From: Choanephora cucurbitarum
Lineage: Eukaryota > Mucoromycota > Mucoromycetes > Mucorales > Choanephoraceae
Direction of reading: 5' to 3'
Length of the DNA: 64,000 nt
NCBI GenBank assembly: GCA_025331435.1
Contig: JAIWNI010000059.1
Location: 1-64,000, forward strand
The position numbers and the translations under genes were made by a program. Of the stretch, positions 6,347 to 63,086 are shown piece by piece (positions within the stretch are counted from its first letter, which is position 1; each line of letters begins with the position of its first letter). The notes under the pieces were generated by a model. The model saw only the letters and a program-made list of their open reading frames with translations, was not told where the DNA came from and made no database searches.

Positions 6347-6407
6347 AAGGATTTGATAATAAAAAAAGCTTAAAACAGCATAATTTTCTGTGAGACTTGA
6401 AAATGTA

Positions 6408-6448
6408 CAGTGGGGTTGCAAAAAATAAGATAAAAATTTAAATTTCCG
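6408..6448 (+). repeat. left terminal inverted repeat of Tc1 element
   Basis: 41 bp starting CAGTGGGG, reverse complement of 7697-7737; preceded by the TA target site at 6406-6407. Confidence 0.95.
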
Positions 6449-6609
6449 CAAAATTCATATTATCATCATCATTGATCTTGACCTACTAAACACCATTAAA
6501 CTATTACTAAATGTCCTGAAATGCTCGAAAAGTCATTAGAAATTGTCTGGATTTGTTTTTGAACTTTTTATTGCTTTGAAATAATACAAATAGGTGAGCT
6601 AGTAGCCAG

Positions 6610-7635
6610 CTAATATCTTGTTGCCCCACCTCTGTGGGCAAGGACATATCTCAGTCTTTTGGGCATGCTTGCAATGAGATTACTCCAATCTTTTGGCCTG
6701 AAACTGTCCCATACATTTTGCAAGCATGCCCGGTGAGCTTCTGCGTTGGGGAAACGCCCGTGTCTGCTTCGTTAGGCCTGCACTCGTCGCTTCATGATCA
6801 TCCATGGATTTTCGATCGGGTTTAAATCTGGCGACTGTGCAGACCAGTCTAGCACCTTCAATCCCTTCTCCAACTTCCAATCTTTTGCAGATCTGCATCT
6901 ATGAACAGGAGCCTCATCTTCCATTAGTATCAGATTTCGCTCCCGTCCATACAATTCAAGGAGAGGGCCATTGTATACAGATGATACAAAACCTTCTCCT
7001 TTGCGTTCAATATCGCTGCAGAAGTGGAGTCGGGATTTACGACCATACCTGATGGCACCCCAAACCATCAAGCTGGTCCTACCACTCTTGAAACTAGGTG
7101 CTAGACATTCTTCGAAGTACTTTTCAAACGGTAGGCGCCAAACCATCACCTTCGCAGAATTTTTGCCGTTTTCGAACGAACTTTCATCCGTCCAAATCAC
7201 CTTCTTCCAGTCTTCCACTGTCCAGTGCTGGTATCTTCTTGCAAAGTCGAGTCTTTTTCTTCGGTGGAAGGCATTTAGGAATGGCTTCTTCTGTGCTACT
7301 CGGCTTCTATAACACATTCTGCGCAATGCACGACGAACGGTGTCCCTGTGAACCTTGACAGGCAAAGAGGACGTCAATTCGGCCAAAGTTGCTCTCCTGT
7401 TGAGCACAATGACCCGCTTAAGAATCCTCAAAACTCTAGGGCTAAGTTTTCTAGGTCTTCCAGATCCTTTAGCACGATCTGTTGTATCTTGCAATTTTTG
7501 CCTTCTTAAGAGTGTGTATACGCTGGCCAATTTTACACCTGCAGCTGTTGAAATTTGCTTAGTTTTCATACCATTTTGGCTTGATTTGACAATAAGACGT
7601 TTTTCTGCATCAGTTAAGTGGGTTCTTTGAGCCAT
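6610..7635 (-). pseudogene. Tc1/mariner transposase (DD34E) with one in-frame stop
   Basis: Catalyses cut-and-paste transposition. Starts MAQRTHLTDAEKRLIVKSS with a paired-like helix-turn-helix (GMKTKQISTAAGVKLASVYTLLRR), a GSGRPRK linker, second HTH (TVRRALRRMCYRSR), then the DDE domain: first Asp in IWTDESSF, second in LMEDEAPVH, Glu in SPDLNPIEN, exactly 34 residues after the second Asp. The frame is interrupted by TAA at about 6769-6771 just after MKRRVQA. In the same frame it resumes with FPNAEAHRACLQNVW and RLRYVLAHRGGATRY and ends at TAG 6610-6612. So a single substitution removes the last ~53 residues; the catalytic triad itself is upstream of the stop. Confidence 0.92.
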
Positions 7636-7696
7636 TTTGATATAGATAAGAGATAAAGGGGATCAATCATTCCATGCATTGTCAACATAATTGAGA

Positions 7697-7737
7697 CGGA
7701 AATTTAAATTTTTATCTTATTTTTTGCAACCCCACTG
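7697..7737 (-). repeat. right terminal inverted repeat of Tc1 element
   Basis: 41 bp, reverse complement of 6408-6448; followed by TA at 7738-7739. Confidence 0.95.
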
Positions 7738-7739
7738 TA

Positions 7740-8207
7740 CTAGTTACACAAACCATGTAATCTGATCTATATAACAAAAGACGGGAAATGACGCGTATCA
7801 GGAATAATGCAATCAAGTAGTTAAAGAGAATACTCCCCCAATGAAAAAACTTGAGTGTTTTTATGGAGAGCAAATGTCGTTGTTAGATAGTTTAACAATC
7901 TTGTTTTAGTCAAAAAAGACAAACTAGTTTTGAAAGATATTACTTTCTTCTCTAACGCTCTTGCACTAGATCTCATCCTTTACAGCAAGTATGCTTAACT
8001 GAAACGCGCTATTCTGAGATTTTTCGTGACAATAAATAGGGCTTATTCACAAAAAAAAAACTTTTTCTTTAGCGAATCATATGAATAACAGAATATTGTC
8101 TATCAATAATACATACACATGGCTAATAGTCAGGTAGTAGATATTGTTCAAAATGTGCTATGTAAATGTAATTTTAGTGAAAAAGAAACTAGCAGCTGCC
8201 AAATCAA
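7740..8207. other. intergenic, nothing recognised
   Basis: AT-rich spacer between the Tc1 element and the Crypton relic. The sequence just before 8208 may be the decayed N-terminal part of the recombinase gene, since scattered similarity-like codons persist but with stops. Confidence 0.5.
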
Positions 8208-56283: not shown

Positions 56284-57240
56284 TTTTATAGATACAAGAA
56301 AGGAAAAAGAAAAAAAAATTTTTTTTGTCCAAAAAATTTAATTAATTCAACGCTTCTTGCATGTGTTATAATGCAGGTATCCATTTGAGATATCTGAATT
56401 GAATTTATGCAGATGATTTGTTAAATGTCAATTAATAGTCTCGGTTTAAAGACCGACTGTCAACCGGTAAATTATCTAGATATGAGTTACATAAAATAAG
56501 CTATGTAGAATACCAAACTGAGGGTAGGGTAAAAGGTCTCTAGCACCAAAATTATTTTATTCAAGTAAACATCTAAATGATTTGTATAAAGAAAAAAGTT
56601 TGCATGTTCCCGAACTTCTCCTACTCCTATTTAACGTTTGACAAGCTATAGCCAGAAAAAGAGAAAACTTCTTTATAACCGCCAATTGTATTTCTTCCTT
56701 TTTCTAGCACCAATTTCTTTGTCTCCATAGCGCATAGCTCATAGCGATATAAAAAAAGTGCCTAACAGGATCAGGTTTTACTGAGATTGGGAGCGAAGAA
56801 AATCAGGAATATAACTGTGCTTTTCAATCTAACAGAAATTGCACTGCGACTCGAAGATCGAAAAAATGATAATGACTTACCATAACGAATATTGACTGTT
56901 ATAAGAATTAGATTTTGTTGAATATCTAAATCAAGAACAATAGTTCAATTCCTTGAATGTTAGGAAGTAAACACTTTTTTTTTCATAATCATACTGTGTA
57001 GAGTGTATAGCATGTCATTTAATGGGATAATTCTCAGTAATGTATGCTTGGCCACTATGGCTAACTTCTTCTCTTCTTGACTTCCTAAGGGTTTTTTTTC
57101 GTGAAAGCTTTTATTTGTCTAAGGAAAAAAAAAAAAGACAACAAAGACTTTTTCTTCAGATCAGAAAGCTTGAAACGGAGCTGGTACAGGATATCAAAGA
57201 CTTGGTTATCTTCTTTTATTGTTTTATTATGTATACACTG
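56284..57240. other. intergenic, nothing recognised
   Basis: About 1 kb of AT-rich DNA upstream of the SANT-like gene. It contains one copy (57100-57126) of a 27-bp motif that recurs at 63392-63418. Confidence 0.5.
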
Positions 57241-57865
57241 ATACATGTTTTATAGGCATCTTTCTGTTGAAGAAAGTGCTTCGCTGGCTACTGTTGAAGT
57301 CTTACACGTACTGATGCCAAACAGGGACTTGAAAGCATCAAATGCCAAAAGTTGCCAGCTTCTTGCCTCGCTTGCATCTTCTTTGACGCAGTGTTCATCG
57401 TACAACAAAGCAATATCGTACAAGCAGTTGATGCTGGTGCTAAAGCTTGCAAATTCTTGATATGTTGTTGGGAGTACTAGACTACCAACTTCTAGCATCA
57501 AGCATATGCCGCCAGCAAGCGAGCACAGATAGAATTTCATGCTTTGGCCTGTTTTCCTTTGTCAGTTTACAACACTTTCTCTTGTTTGCTCTATACATGA
57601 GTTCTGCTTACCAATGACTTGGAAGACCATAGAGTGCTTCAAGTTGTCAACTACAAGCATGTTGACTCCGAAGAGAGCAAGCCGGTATTGATCCAAGGCA
57701 ACACCATTTGCTGATGCCATGGATCGCTTGATTTCGCCTACAACATTCGTATATGGCCTGTTTTCTTGGACTTCTACAATGTAGTCAGGCCGACATCTCT
57801 TCACTGAATCTACATTATACAACACACGATCACACCTTTACAACATACAAATACATATACACATA
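57241..57865 (+). repeat. left arm of 625-bp inverted repeat
   Basis: Reverse complement of 60182-60806, same length; encoded peptides and opposite-strand frames are identical in the two arms, so nucleotide identity appears complete. Contains part of intron 7, exon 8, intron 8 and exon 9 of the unknown gene plus 9 bp past its stop. Confidence 0.93.
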
Positions 57866-59124
57866 TTAATTTAAATGAAAAAGCTATTTTTTGTGTAAGA
57901 GTTCTAGTTCACTTACCCTTGAGGGGCATGTATGTTGCTTGCCTTGAAGATATGGCATACAGCAGGTACAACATTTGACTGAAGGCGCATCTCGCCTTTT
58001 GTGCCTGCTTTCAAAGTCATGTGTCCAAGCCTGCAAATAGGTTAGTTGCGAAGGTGAGATTCTTGAATTACTTACAAATTTATCAGCACATTTATGACAC
58101 GTTTTTCAGCGTCAGTGCTATTCTTTTTCAATAGCCTTAATTGCTCGTCAAGCTCATCTACGTCGTAGCTCTCTTCGAAAGCCTAAAATAGTGTGAGTAC
58201 TATATGGTTCAACATTGGCTATTTGCGTACCTCAAACATGTCAGTGAGATGACTCTTCAAGCTCTCTTTCACTTTCTTTGGCTTTCCAAATAAATGATTC
58301 CTCATGAACAGTCTGAAGCGACTGAGATACTGGCTGTTAAGAGCATCACCAATTGGTTCATTTCCAGCCTTCTTCAATACAAGAATTTTTTGTAATATCC
58401 TACAGTTGAGAGTAAGTAAAAAGTTATTTATACAGCATGTGCGTATAATCAAACACTCACAATAGCTTATTGACATCAGCAGACAAGTTCTTCTTTGAAC
58501 TTGATTTAAAATATTCAACATAAATGCTGAATTTCTTGTTCAACTCCACCTCCACATCAACATCTTCAAAGACTAGGTCCCCCTTGGTATTTATCGTTGG
58601 CAACCCATCAATACTATTTTGGAAGAAACCAAAAAGTTAAAAGTAACATTAGGAAAGAAGAATGATTAAACTCTTGACATATAAATACTTACGCCTCAAT
58701 CACATTACTTGTGTAAATGCTTCTTTTAGTTGCTGGCTTCGAAATAGTAGATCTTTCTACAATCTTTTCAAATAGACAGAATTAATACAAAAAAATAAAA
58801 TAGTTTATGTATAAACTAGTCAGTGTTGAGCTTACCAACGATAACCATGCCTTCTTGGCATTTCCCTTGACCTATACATATGTGTTAGAAATATCACACC
58901 AAATATGTCATGGCTTACTTGTAACATACAAACGAAACACTATGGTCTTTTGCATGAACGCTAAACCAGTACAACCAATTGTCAAATTCAGCTGCGTCTT
59001 TTTTATCACAATGTGATTGTATATATTGTTGACGTTCTTTGATAAATGCTTCAAAAGAAGGTTGAACATCTTTTTGATCGCATTTGCGAAAAAATCTTTT
59101 AAAAATTTGTGCGTGAGGAGTCAT
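57250..59124 (-). CDS. unknown nine-exon protein with PD-(D/E)XK-like C-terminus
   Basis: Exons 59124-58930, 58871-58836, 58763-58693, 58613-58461, 58399-58231, 58182-58076, 58030-57917, 57835-57612, 57548-57250; 455 residues, all phases agree. Starts MTPHAQIFKRFFRKCDQKDV; middle contains GLPTINTKGDLVFEDVDVEV, KKNLSADVNKLLILQKILVL, SQYLSRFRLFMRNHLFGKP and AFEESYDVDELDEQLRLLKK. The C-terminal part has KRCRPDYIVEV then NVVGEIKRSMAS: an RPD...GEIK arrangement like the PD-(D/E)XK nuclease core. It continues FGVNMLVVDNLKHSMVFQVI and MKFYLCSLAGGICLMLEVGS. I recall similar RPD/GEIK proteins as expanded, transposon-associated families in Mucoromycota, but that is not verified. An overlapping upstream frame (59121-59303, MARKGNSLHQAIND) may be a further 5' part. 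The last two exons lie in the left arm of a large inverted repeat. Confidence 0.65.
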
Positions 59125-60181
59125 AAAAATAATTTGTAGATGAAAAGAACTGCAGTTGCTGTGGCATTATATCTGTTTTTATACCCTGCGATATATCGTG
59201 ACTGAACTTTGTTGCCTTTTTGAAAATGTCGATCATAGTTTACTCTTCTTATGAACATAAAATCATTAATTGCTTGATGCAATGAATTTCCTTTCCTTGC
59301 CATTAAGTAAACATCAATATAGCTAACTACAGGATTAGAAGAAGTAAGTCATATATATATATATATATATATATATCAGTGTGTATATCGTTTTTTTATT
59401 GCTAAATTTTGAGTTGAGCTATTGTTGTTTTTAAGGAATCATTAGACTAGAGATACTAACGTTTCATCTGTAGTCGGACAGTGAATGCTATGACATGTGA
59501 ACGTTTATGGTTACAAAGTATTCAGGTATTGTCACAATGCTTTAAGTTTTACGGATCGATTTATCGAATATAGTGTACCTAGATGCAATCGTAACTCCTC
59601 TTCCTAACAATATGTGTTTTTCTAAAACCTCATTGACCTGCTGTTCTTGATCTTACTTTTGATTTAATAGATCAAGCCATACAAACCATTGTTGTTTGCT
59701 TATATAAGAATTGCCTAATTTTTATGTATATTACTCGTACAATTGTTTATCGGCCCTATTTTTATCGCTTTAGACAAAAACGAAAGCAAAAAAAAAGAGC
59801 AAGAGAAACAGCAATTATTTAGTTGAGATAAATGTTGATATTATTATTTGTTATACTATTTACAATAGTCGCTTTATTTAAAAGTGTGCATATTCTCGAG
59901 AAACACACTCTTATATTGAGCATACTCTTAAATCAAACACTCTTAAATCGGGCGGCTACTGTAGCTATCTCCGGGACAGCTAGTTACACATAACATGTTT
60001 CTTTTTCAAGACTATCATTTGTACAATACGCAACAAACGATTCCAATCAAAACAAATGTATTAAGATACATTTAGCTATGTATAAGAGGCTGGCTTTATA
60101 AACAGCAATGATAACAACAGCAATGATAGCAACAGCAATAGTTTTATGCAATAACTAAAATTGAAAGCTATAGTATATGTG
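59125..60181. other. spacer between gene start and right inverted arm
   Basis: Contains an upstream frame at 59121-59303 (minus), an (AT)n microsatellite at 59351-59376, and otherwise AT-rich sequence with no recognised feature; probably the promoter of the unknown gene. Confidence 0.5.
59351..59376. repeat. (AT)13 microsatellite
   Basis: Uninterrupted AT dinucleotides, 26 bp. Confidence 0.9.
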
Positions 60182-60806
60182 TATGTGTATATGTATTTGT
60201 ATGTTGTAAAGGTGTGATCGTGTGTTGTATAATGTAGATTCAGTGAAGAGATGTCGGCCTGACTACATTGTAGAAGTCCAAGAAAACAGGCCATATACGA
60301 ATGTTGTAGGCGAAATCAAGCGATCCATGGCATCAGCAAATGGTGTTGCCTTGGATCAATACCGGCTTGCTCTCTTCGGAGTCAACATGCTTGTAGTTGA
60401 CAACTTGAAGCACTCTATGGTCTTCCAAGTCATTGGTAAGCAGAACTCATGTATAGAGCAAACAAGAGAAAGTGTTGTAAACTGACAAAGGAAAACAGGC
60501 CAAAGCATGAAATTCTATCTGTGCTCGCTTGCTGGCGGCATATGCTTGATGCTAGAAGTTGGTAGTCTAGTACTCCCAACAACATATCAAGAATTTGCAA
60601 GCTTTAGCACCAGCATCAACTGCTTGTACGATATTGCTTTGTTGTACGATGAACACTGCGTCAAAGAAGATGCAAGCGAGGCAAGAAGCTGGCAACTTTT
60701 GGCATTTGATGCTTTCAAGTCCCTGTTTGGCATCAGTACGTGTAAGACTTCAACAGTAGCCAGCGAAGCACTTTCTTCAACAGAAAGATGCCTATAAAAC
60801 ATGTAT
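60182..60806 (-). repeat. right arm of 625-bp inverted repeat
   Basis: Mirror copy of 57241-57865; spacer between arms is 2316 bp (57866-60181). No target-site duplication was found at the outer ends. Confidence 0.93.
60212..60797 (+). pseudogene. inverted partial copy of exons 8-9 of unknown gene
   Basis: Carries the exon 8 equivalent (60212-60435), the intron with intact GTAAGC and ACAG, and exon 9 equivalent (60499-60797), preceded by the 3' part of intron 7 with its AAAG acceptor. It has no first seven exons and therefore no evident start; unless it is spliced to an unknown upstream exon it is a truncated copy. Coding capacity is undamaged, indicating recent duplication or gene conversion. 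Confidence 0.85.
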
Positions 60807-61249
60807 AATTACCTTCTTGTTCTCCTTGAGAATCATGTATCGAACACACGTTTGTATGATTTTTCGTGGATTCTTTCAAATAAATTTTATCCTTACAAAA
60901 CACGATATTTCATTCAGTAGGGTTGTTTATAATATATATATCAATAGGGCATGAAAAACATTTGACAGATCTTATTTGAGCCTGGCTAAGGGAAGCATAG
61001 TGTTTGCGATGAGAAAGAACAAGATCCCAAGAGGCAAAGATTTACAATATGCCTCGAAATATCTCGTGAAATTTGAAAACAAAACTTGTATTGTGAAAAC
61101 TATTCCACACTAGCACAGCTTTTGCCTATCAATAGTGCCTTCATGTTTTAAGCATATATAAAATAGACTATATTGTTTTATTCGGTGAAAAAAAAAATCG
61201 ATGTATCAATACTTTGTAGGCTTCCTTAGCCTTTGCAATCGATTCTTAT

Positions 61250-62060
61250 CTTCGGTTCATGCTGCCAACACAGTTGTTCAGATAATCTAGAGCGAGCTTG
61301 TACCATTCCTCTTTCAAAGCCCCCTCCAAATCACTGAGGGTATCAATCTCACTCCCAGTCAATCGGTTTCTTAGATAAGCACAAAAGTCTTTATAGGATC
61401 AACGGCTGAAACCTGTGCTGGCCATCTGTCAAAAGTGTTTGTCATGGTCTTCAGCTTAAATCATCGGGAGTATGCTCCTACATGATAAGGAGCATTGCCT
61501 TCCTACATTATGTAGCCAATATTGGTCTTGTAAGACTCTTTCTCGATCCAGGGAAGGCAACAATCAATCAAACATTGAACATACACTTTTTGATCCATTG
61601 ATTCATGCTGTACCTCAAGAGGGCCAATACCATTTGCGTGAAAGCATTCCCATACCATCACAGAACCCAAACCAAACTTGTGGGCATCCTTAATGTGCCT
61701 CTCCTAGTATCTTTCTCCGTCCTTTCTGATCATCTCTAGTTCCAAAACTAGCACTCTTTAAGGTGAGCTTGGCCTCATCAGATTAAACTACCTTATTCCA
61801 GTCATCCTTTGTCCAGTTAAGCCTTTCTTTGACCCAAGCCAAACGTGGTTCTTTGTGTCTGCGCTTCAGTGCTGGCTTCTTTGCTGCAACACGCGATTTG
61901 AAGTTCATATGACTCAAAGCTTTTCGAAAAGTGGACAAAGAGACCTTCTTGCCAAGACTCAAAAAGCGACGATATTAAGCCTCGATCAACTCAATAAGTT
62001 GTCAATGAATACTTTAACCAGTAGCATTAAAATCAGTTGAAGAGAGAAGCCTTTTTTCCT
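61250..62060 (-). pseudogene. decayed Tc1/mariner transposase
   Basis: Minus-strand sequence with a recognisable Tc1 transposase order but many stops and frameshifts. Starting near 61960: KKVSLSTFRKALSHMNFKSR, VAAKKPALKRRHKEPRLAWV, LNWTKDDWNKVV then a stop and SDEAKLTLKSASFG (first Asp), VWFGFCDGMGML near 61680, LHNVGRQCSLSCRS, a WPAQVSAVDPIK remnant of WPAQSPDLNPIE near 61410, and the C-terminal LKEEWYKLALDYLNNCVGSMNRR near 61250. It differs from the element at 6.4 kb, so it is another Tc1 lineage. Terminal repeats were not found. Confidence 0.8.
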
Positions 62061-62489
62061 AGCTAAAGTCTTGCTAAAGTCTTTTATGTGCTGTTCGTAC
62101 AGTTGATTCAGGAAAGTCAAGATCTCTTGCGATTTACGGAATTTTTTCTTTAGTAAGTGAAAGCGCCTGCTAATCTACCATAATTCTAATTGGGTAGGTT
62201 TTTATTAGCTTTTTTCTTTTTTTGATAACAGGAATAACAGTGAATGTGTTCAATTCAGTAAGAAAAGGGGTGATGAGAAGACCAACAGAAAAATCATCAG
62301 ATCTGTGAGCCTGTAGTTTTCATAAGATATTTCGAGCCACATTGTGCATGAAACAATTTTTTGCTTCAGATGAGTGATAGGCAGCTTTATTTGGATTAGT
62401 ATGATTGATAGAGACAAATTCACATTTGAGCAATTTCCCTCCTTTAGCTCTTTGATATACCAGAATGGTGTGAAAATAGAAAAAGAATA

Positions 62490-62657
62490 TTGGTTTTTCA
62501 AATTGAATTAGCGCATCAAGATTTTTTTTTTTTGCGTACTGGAACTTTTTTTTATTATACAAAATATACGTGAATGCGCAAACCTCAAAACGCAAAAAAA
62601 AAATCTCGACACGCAAAAAAAAAAATCTTGATGCGCTAATTCAATTTGAAAAACCAA
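62490..62657. mobile_element. 168-bp hairpin MITE (TA-flanked)
   Basis: Arms of about 47 bp (62490-62536 and 62612-62657) are inverse copies: one begins TTGGTTTTTCAAATTGAATT and continues AGCGCATCAAG then a T run and GCG; the other is its complement with one base fewer in the A run. TA dinucleotides flank both ends (62488-62489, 62658-62659). Internal direct copies of CGCAAAAAAAAAATC occur. Size, hairpin form and TA duplications fit a Tc1/mariner-type MITE. Confidence 0.75.
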
Positions 62658-62801
62658 TAAAAAATAGTCTTTCTAAAATAGGAAGTCAGTTAAACATTAA
62701 GTTATTTCAAAGGGGTGGAGGAAAAAAACATGGGTCAAATTCCTTTCCCCTCTACCTTTGTCTCTTGGAATCTTGCCACAAGATCAGTAAGAGTGATCCA
62801 T

Positions 62802-63086
62802 TTTTTTCTCATTGCGAATACTGTGCCTCCCACTGGAGGGTCATTGGTACTAGTGAACATATATACCATCAGTTTAATCAGGACATACGAGCCTGCGCTG
62901 GGCTGCTCTGCTCTGTATATGTACTTTGTCATGTAACTAACTGCTTTGTCTGTTTGTTTTTTCTCATTGCGAATACTGTGCCTCCCACTGGAGGGTCATT
63001 GGTACTAGTGAACATATATACCATCAGTTTAATCAGGACATACGAGCCTGCGCTGGGCTGCTCTGCTCTGTATATGTACTTTGTCA
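62802..63086 (+). repeat. 130-bp direct duplication
   Basis: Segments 62802-62931 and 62957-63086 appear identical (start TTTTTTCTCATTGCGAATAC, end GTATATGTACTTTGTCA), separated by 25 bp. No coding meaning seen; open frames across it are chance. Confidence 0.9.

Follow-up and report, generated by a model that had tools for sequence, protein, structure and literature searches.

Genic inverted repeats and the arm pair of Choanephora

Palindromes of Y-type chromosomes consist of inverted arms between which gene conversion takes place. The locus that we describe here, on contig C313 of the Choanephora cucurbitarum assembly, likewise has inverted arms of very high identity around a spacer, but its arms are much smaller and the sex-chromosome setting belongs to the palindromes. 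In Caenorhabditis, inverted repeats that hold gene pairs are long, near-perfect and kept alike within species, and gene conversion has been proposed as the cause (Zhao et al. 2007, PMC1803023). These repeats and C313 have in common near-perfect inverted arms made of both genic and noncoding DNA; in Caenorhabditis, however, that account has paralogous gene pairs flanking or filling the arms and a structure that persists across species (PMC1803023), whereas the C313 arms hold only the 3' exons of one gene. We place the C313 pair with the Caenorhabditis repeats, as a case whose arm takes in just a portion of a gene. Near-identical inverted arms that include noncoding DNA, as in conversion-maintained loci, were found both at C313 and at other loci of the same gene family. 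Templated and inverted insertions and microhomology-mediated template switching have also been described, and are reported to place a reversed copy of a stretch at a nearby site, as at C313 (PMC11724301, PMC2621351). The yeast inverted duplications given there are mostly ~5–34 bp long (PMC11724301), compared with 625 bp at C313, where template switching is a presumed mechanism.

The window, that is, the whole 64,000-nucleotide stretch of DNA that was analysed, contains no N and lies within a 187,773-bp contig of a 33.4-Mb assembly of 357 contigs, and the locus is interior to that contig. This assembly is distinct from the published KUS-F28377 one, which was built from short reads and comprises 29.1 Mb in 2,814 scaffolds. 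Using a repeat search and a script, we found that positions 57241–57865 and 60182–60806 are exact reverse complements over 625 nt (100% complementary). An earlier, sequence-only reading of this DNA had described a perfect 625-bp inverted repeat at just these coordinates, and the observation is confirmed: alignment of the left arm with the reverse complement of the right arm matched at 625/625 positions. Chance is far too weak to yield an exact match of 625 bases.

The arms enclose a gene of PD-(D/E)XK-like type, encoding 442 amino acids on the minus strand (57250..59124), for which we built our own nine-exon model on the sequence alone, with motif and fold taken from paralogues. Exons 1 to 7 of the model occupy 59124–58930, 58871–58836, 58763–58693, 58613–58461, 58399–58231, 58182–58076 and 58030–57917, exons 8 and 9 occupy 57796–57612 and 57548–57250, all on the minus strand, and all eight introns are of the GT...AG type. 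The left arm (57241..57865, minus strand) starts with 9 bp of 3' flank and the stop codon, runs through exon 9, intron 8 and exon 8, and takes in the final 69 bp of intron 7, in agreement with the earlier proposal that it is the native 3' end of the gene with exons 8–9. The right arm (60182..60806, plus strand) is its exact inverted copy and lacks exons 1–7; subtraction of the left coordinates from 118047 places the copies of exons 8 and 9 at 60251–60435 and 60499–60797 on the plus strand. Both the script and the gene model bear out that this arm is an inverted copy upstream of the gene. The spacer (57866..60181), which had been put at 2.3 kb with the remainder of the gene, measures 2,316 bp and holds exons 1–7 and ~1.06 kb of upstream sequence. 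The right copy sits ~1.06 kb upstream of the ATG of the gene and is oriented away from it. No ATG follows the last in-frame stop ahead of the copied domain, and the copy is a 5'-truncated gene fragment.

One end of the arm lies inside intron 7 and the other 9 bp beyond the stop codon. When the 400-bp inner flanks were aligned with each other, and the outer flanks likewise, scores did not exceed those of shuffles; both edges are abrupt. Across this and four further loci of the family that are described below, 9/10 such flank comparisons were not above shuffles, the exception being the outer flank at C135 (score 35, shuffle maximum 30). At C313 the outer flanks are unlike (CACTG and AATTA), the outer ends of the arms read ATA, and on its inner side the right arm joins the spacer within a TATGTG repeat. 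A search of its own genome, with both candidates scored, returned no third copy of the arm, so that the further copies that the earlier reading had thought worth seeking came down to these two; nor, in the 40 scored out of 320 candidates, did the surroundings recur or any empty site come to light.

A predicted nuclease family

PD ... (D/E)xK is the catalytic motif of the PD-(D/E)XK nuclease superfamily. The C313 gene encodes CRPDYIVEV...VVGEIK, and in a 17-row alignment of paralogues, two rows of which are truncated or have no PD portion, RPD(F/Y) occurs in 14/17, ExK in 15/17 and GExK in 12. The alpha-beta-beta-beta-alpha-beta core fold of the superfamily is present in the predicted structure of paralogues. 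The motif and the predicted fold uphold the earlier description of the protein as nuclease-like, and we class the family as PD-(D/E)XK-like and its members as predicted, putative nucleases. It has this fold and motif in common with known branches of the superfamily (BpuSI, DrdV, DUF820 and Hjc domains) but, unlike the described families, it has no meaningful sequence match in Pfam or the PDB: the C313 protein as query had no match in Pfam, the 17 family rows gave only weak, scattered Pfam matches (E 0.03–0.18, one row each), and a PDB sequence search gave none. Among 5.8 billion sequences, one homologue, from Blakeslea trispora (38%), came up in a protein search that was restricted both by length range and by word matches. 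A narrowly worded literature search for an expansion of restriction-endonuclease-like genes in Mucorales found no publication. A nuclease-fold family that has no Pfam model is worth describing.

A first structure model, of the Blakeslea protein with 6 rows, was poor (pLDDT 36.5) and was discarded. A C11 protease identity dominates the best Foldseek rows, the top three having E values of 0.005–0.016 and query TM-scores of 0.24–0.27, and we do not believe it.

The nearest paralogue compared with the C313 gene has 66% protein identity over the motif-bearing part and ~73% identity in DNA. For three of five paralogue pairs, short pieces gave dN/dS ratios of 0.17, 0.21 and 0.25 (NG86) and of 0.23, 0.25 and 0.48 (YN00), the C6/C351 piece including ~13 codons read from an intron; in the other two, which are recent, dS was 0. 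At C224:203603–212717 (G000), one of the genome's three RdRP loci stands ~5.6 kb away from the sequence-closest paralogue. Elsewhere, at C135:257548–259046 (L045:548–2046), a gene has the N-terminal domain of the family at 40% identity and a different C-terminal part, which by eye reads as PD-(D/E)XK-like (KPDFF...CVEVKK) and suggests possible domain swapping; against Pfam this gene had only matches below the cut-off, mostly onto an acidic stretch.

Mirrored and direct copies in the genome

From the family search of the genome we picked four further opposite-strand pairs with like scores on the same contig, and the DNA of all four contained long inverted arms. At C46 the arms are 4.3 kb long and 99.65% identical, around a 6.9-kb spacer with a reverse-transcriptase element (RVT_1 Pfam match). 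Those at C201 measure 9.7 kb (99.93%), and their 5.2-kb spacer holds a Helitron (Helitron_like_N Pfam match). C135 has 2.1-kb arms (99.67%) and a spacer of 12.9 kb, 7.0 kb of it unread, with pieces of reverse transcriptase recognized by eye. At C190, arms of ~6.1 kb consist of blocks of 98.3% and 96.5% identity around an 8.1-kb spacer; one arm is 675 bp longer, and the arms also hold two genes that by eye are sialate esterase-like. The position of the family gene inside the arm varies among these loci.

Mismatches between arms were unevenly spread: 8/8 fall in the outer 142 bp at C46, 5/6 in the outer 111 bp at C135, and at C190 bins of 0 stand beside bins of 18–25 per 300 bp. When mismatches were placed uniformly, an identical run this long occurred in 0/2000 placements for each of C46, C135 and C190, demonstrating clustering; by the same test, C201 showed none (p 0.11). 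The C313 arms have zero mismatches and no diverged margin. Clustered mismatches at C46, C135 and C190 fit arm-to-arm gene conversion, so that inverted arms of this family may exchange sequence. A 276-bp tandem duplication (92%) lies at the outer end of the left arm of C46 (C46:421276–421837; L040:4276–4837) and may be another source of the end clusters there, and exchange with the second similar gene inside the arm may be another source of those at C190.

Once family loci were merged, 16 pairs were ≤30 kb apart on the same contig, 6 inverted and 10 direct. Among the pairs that were aligned, near-identical copies were seen in five inverted (C313, C46, C201, C135 and C190) and two direct cases, a split that shows no significant orientation bias. 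The direct pairs are 99.5% identical over 3.6 kb (C39) and 99.7% over 630 bp (C290), and copies on different contigs reach 99.7% over 795 bp (C146/C295) and 92.8% over 572 bp (C24/C304). As near-identical copies also occur in direct orientation and across contigs, the family duplicates often, and inverted orientation is common in it, yet not exclusive. For comparison we used three conserved core families, which were not matched to the genomic compartment of this family: kinases (at least 147 rows, 122/428 candidates scored), RRM proteins (at least 136 rows, 150/172) and polysaccharide deacetylases (27 rows, 28/28). Visual inspection of their listed matches turned up no pair on one contig and opposite strands that agreed in score and range; equal-score copies on different contigs do occur (kinase C96/C112; RRM C135/C318/C322).

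With C313, the inverted-arm loci of this recurrently duplicating gene family number at least five in the genome. By itself, the C313 repeat is no more than a small local duplication; seen alongside the four others, it points to a fast-duplicating, nuclease-like family in Choanephora.

Origin of the arm pair

The arm pair is probably best explained by a local inverted segmental duplication of ~625 bp that includes the 3', motif-bearing exons. In the simplest account, a template switch during repair or replication would have placed a reversed copy of about 625 bp of the PD-(D/E)XK-like gene ~1.06 kb upstream of it; the position of the inner junction in the short TATGTG repeat would suit a switch of this kind at microhomology. 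As the exact arms include an intron, the copy is not a retrocopy. The arms may be identical because the event was recent or because conversion has acted between them. The sequence-only reading had argued from the identity of introns as well as exons for a very recent duplication or ongoing gene conversion; that identity is exact, but 'very recent' is weakened, as zero differences in 625 bp bound divergence only at ~0.5% (rule of three, our arithmetic). With the same 3' exons in both arms, recombination between the arms would, from the geometry, invert the 2.3-kb spacer while the gene stayed intact, now in the opposite direction.

Perfect arms would also suit a natural hairpin-RNA locus, in which a transcript over both arms forms 625 bp of dsRNA and directs RNAi to the gene and to related genes, and the genome has Argonaute (one Piwi match) and RdRP (three loci); RNAi has been studied in a related fungus, Mucor circinelloides. 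We nevertheless consider such a locus unlikely. The mRNA of the gene, transcribed from the minus strand with its coding start at 59124, should cover the left arm only, so a hairpin requires a transcript that enters outside one arm and crosses all 3.6 kb; on the plus strand, the right arm is sense rather than antisense. In our judgement, the nearest paralogue compared is also too distant at both protein and DNA level for good silencing in trans. The proposed role as an RNAi trigger is accordingly unsupported.

An assembly artefact, by fold-back or chimeric join, had been raised at the outset, and at 100% identity divergence cannot establish that there are two real copies. Such a join is quite improbable, given that the locus is interior to the 187.8-kb contig, that the two flanks of each arm differ in sequence and that similar structures stand at four other family loci, with clearly diverged arms at C190; the stretch is also free of N.

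That the arms are instead an old inverted duplication, held identical by conversion and under selection as a cassette that inverts or converts the catalytic domain, is highly doubtful: the arm contains just the motif exons and three other loci have clustered mismatches, but C313 lacks a diverged margin and the gene takes varying positions in the arms elsewhere. It is likewise a long shot that the nucleases of the family drive their own spread, with breaks near their own genes repaired by nearby copying of the gene or its catalytic exons, often reversed, and the 625-bp pair as a fresh product; if true, this would be a recurrently mirrored gene family whose 625-bp pair preserves a complete gene whichever way round it lies.

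We hold it very unlikely that the arms are long terminal inverted repeats bounding a mobile element present in a single copy, which the earlier reading had considered as an unrecognized element. Equal, symmetric arms around a nuclease-like gene would suit an element, and a palindromic TA target duplication would be hidden in arms with ATA at their outer ends. Against this, the structure is found at a single locus with unequal flanks (CACTG/AATTA), the arms have no third genomic copy and end in an intron and just past the stop codon of a spliced gene, and 56900–61200, compared with the 40 candidates scored out of 320, has matches elsewhere only at a 103-bp repeat.

This dispersed repeat (59861..59963) lies in the spacer, is TA-flanked and has short terminal inverted repeats, with ends of the type TACAATAGTCGC...GCGACTACTGTA; we name it a putative MITE. 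It has at least 46 further match rows in the 40 scored out of 320 candidates, and some copies are close to genes of the family, on C50, C246 and C328. Broken remains of a Tc1/mariner-like transposase, recognized by eye, adjoin the right arm (61150–62660), and the same neighbourhood contains an exact 45-bp inverted repeat (62488–62532/62615–62659) and a direct duplication (62802–63086; 130 bp exact, 155 bp from start to start). Far from the arms, at 6405–7740, the window holds what by eye is a Tc1/mariner-like element with exact inverted ends of 44 bp, within which a 296-amino-acid frame (6772–7662, minus strand) looks transposase-like.
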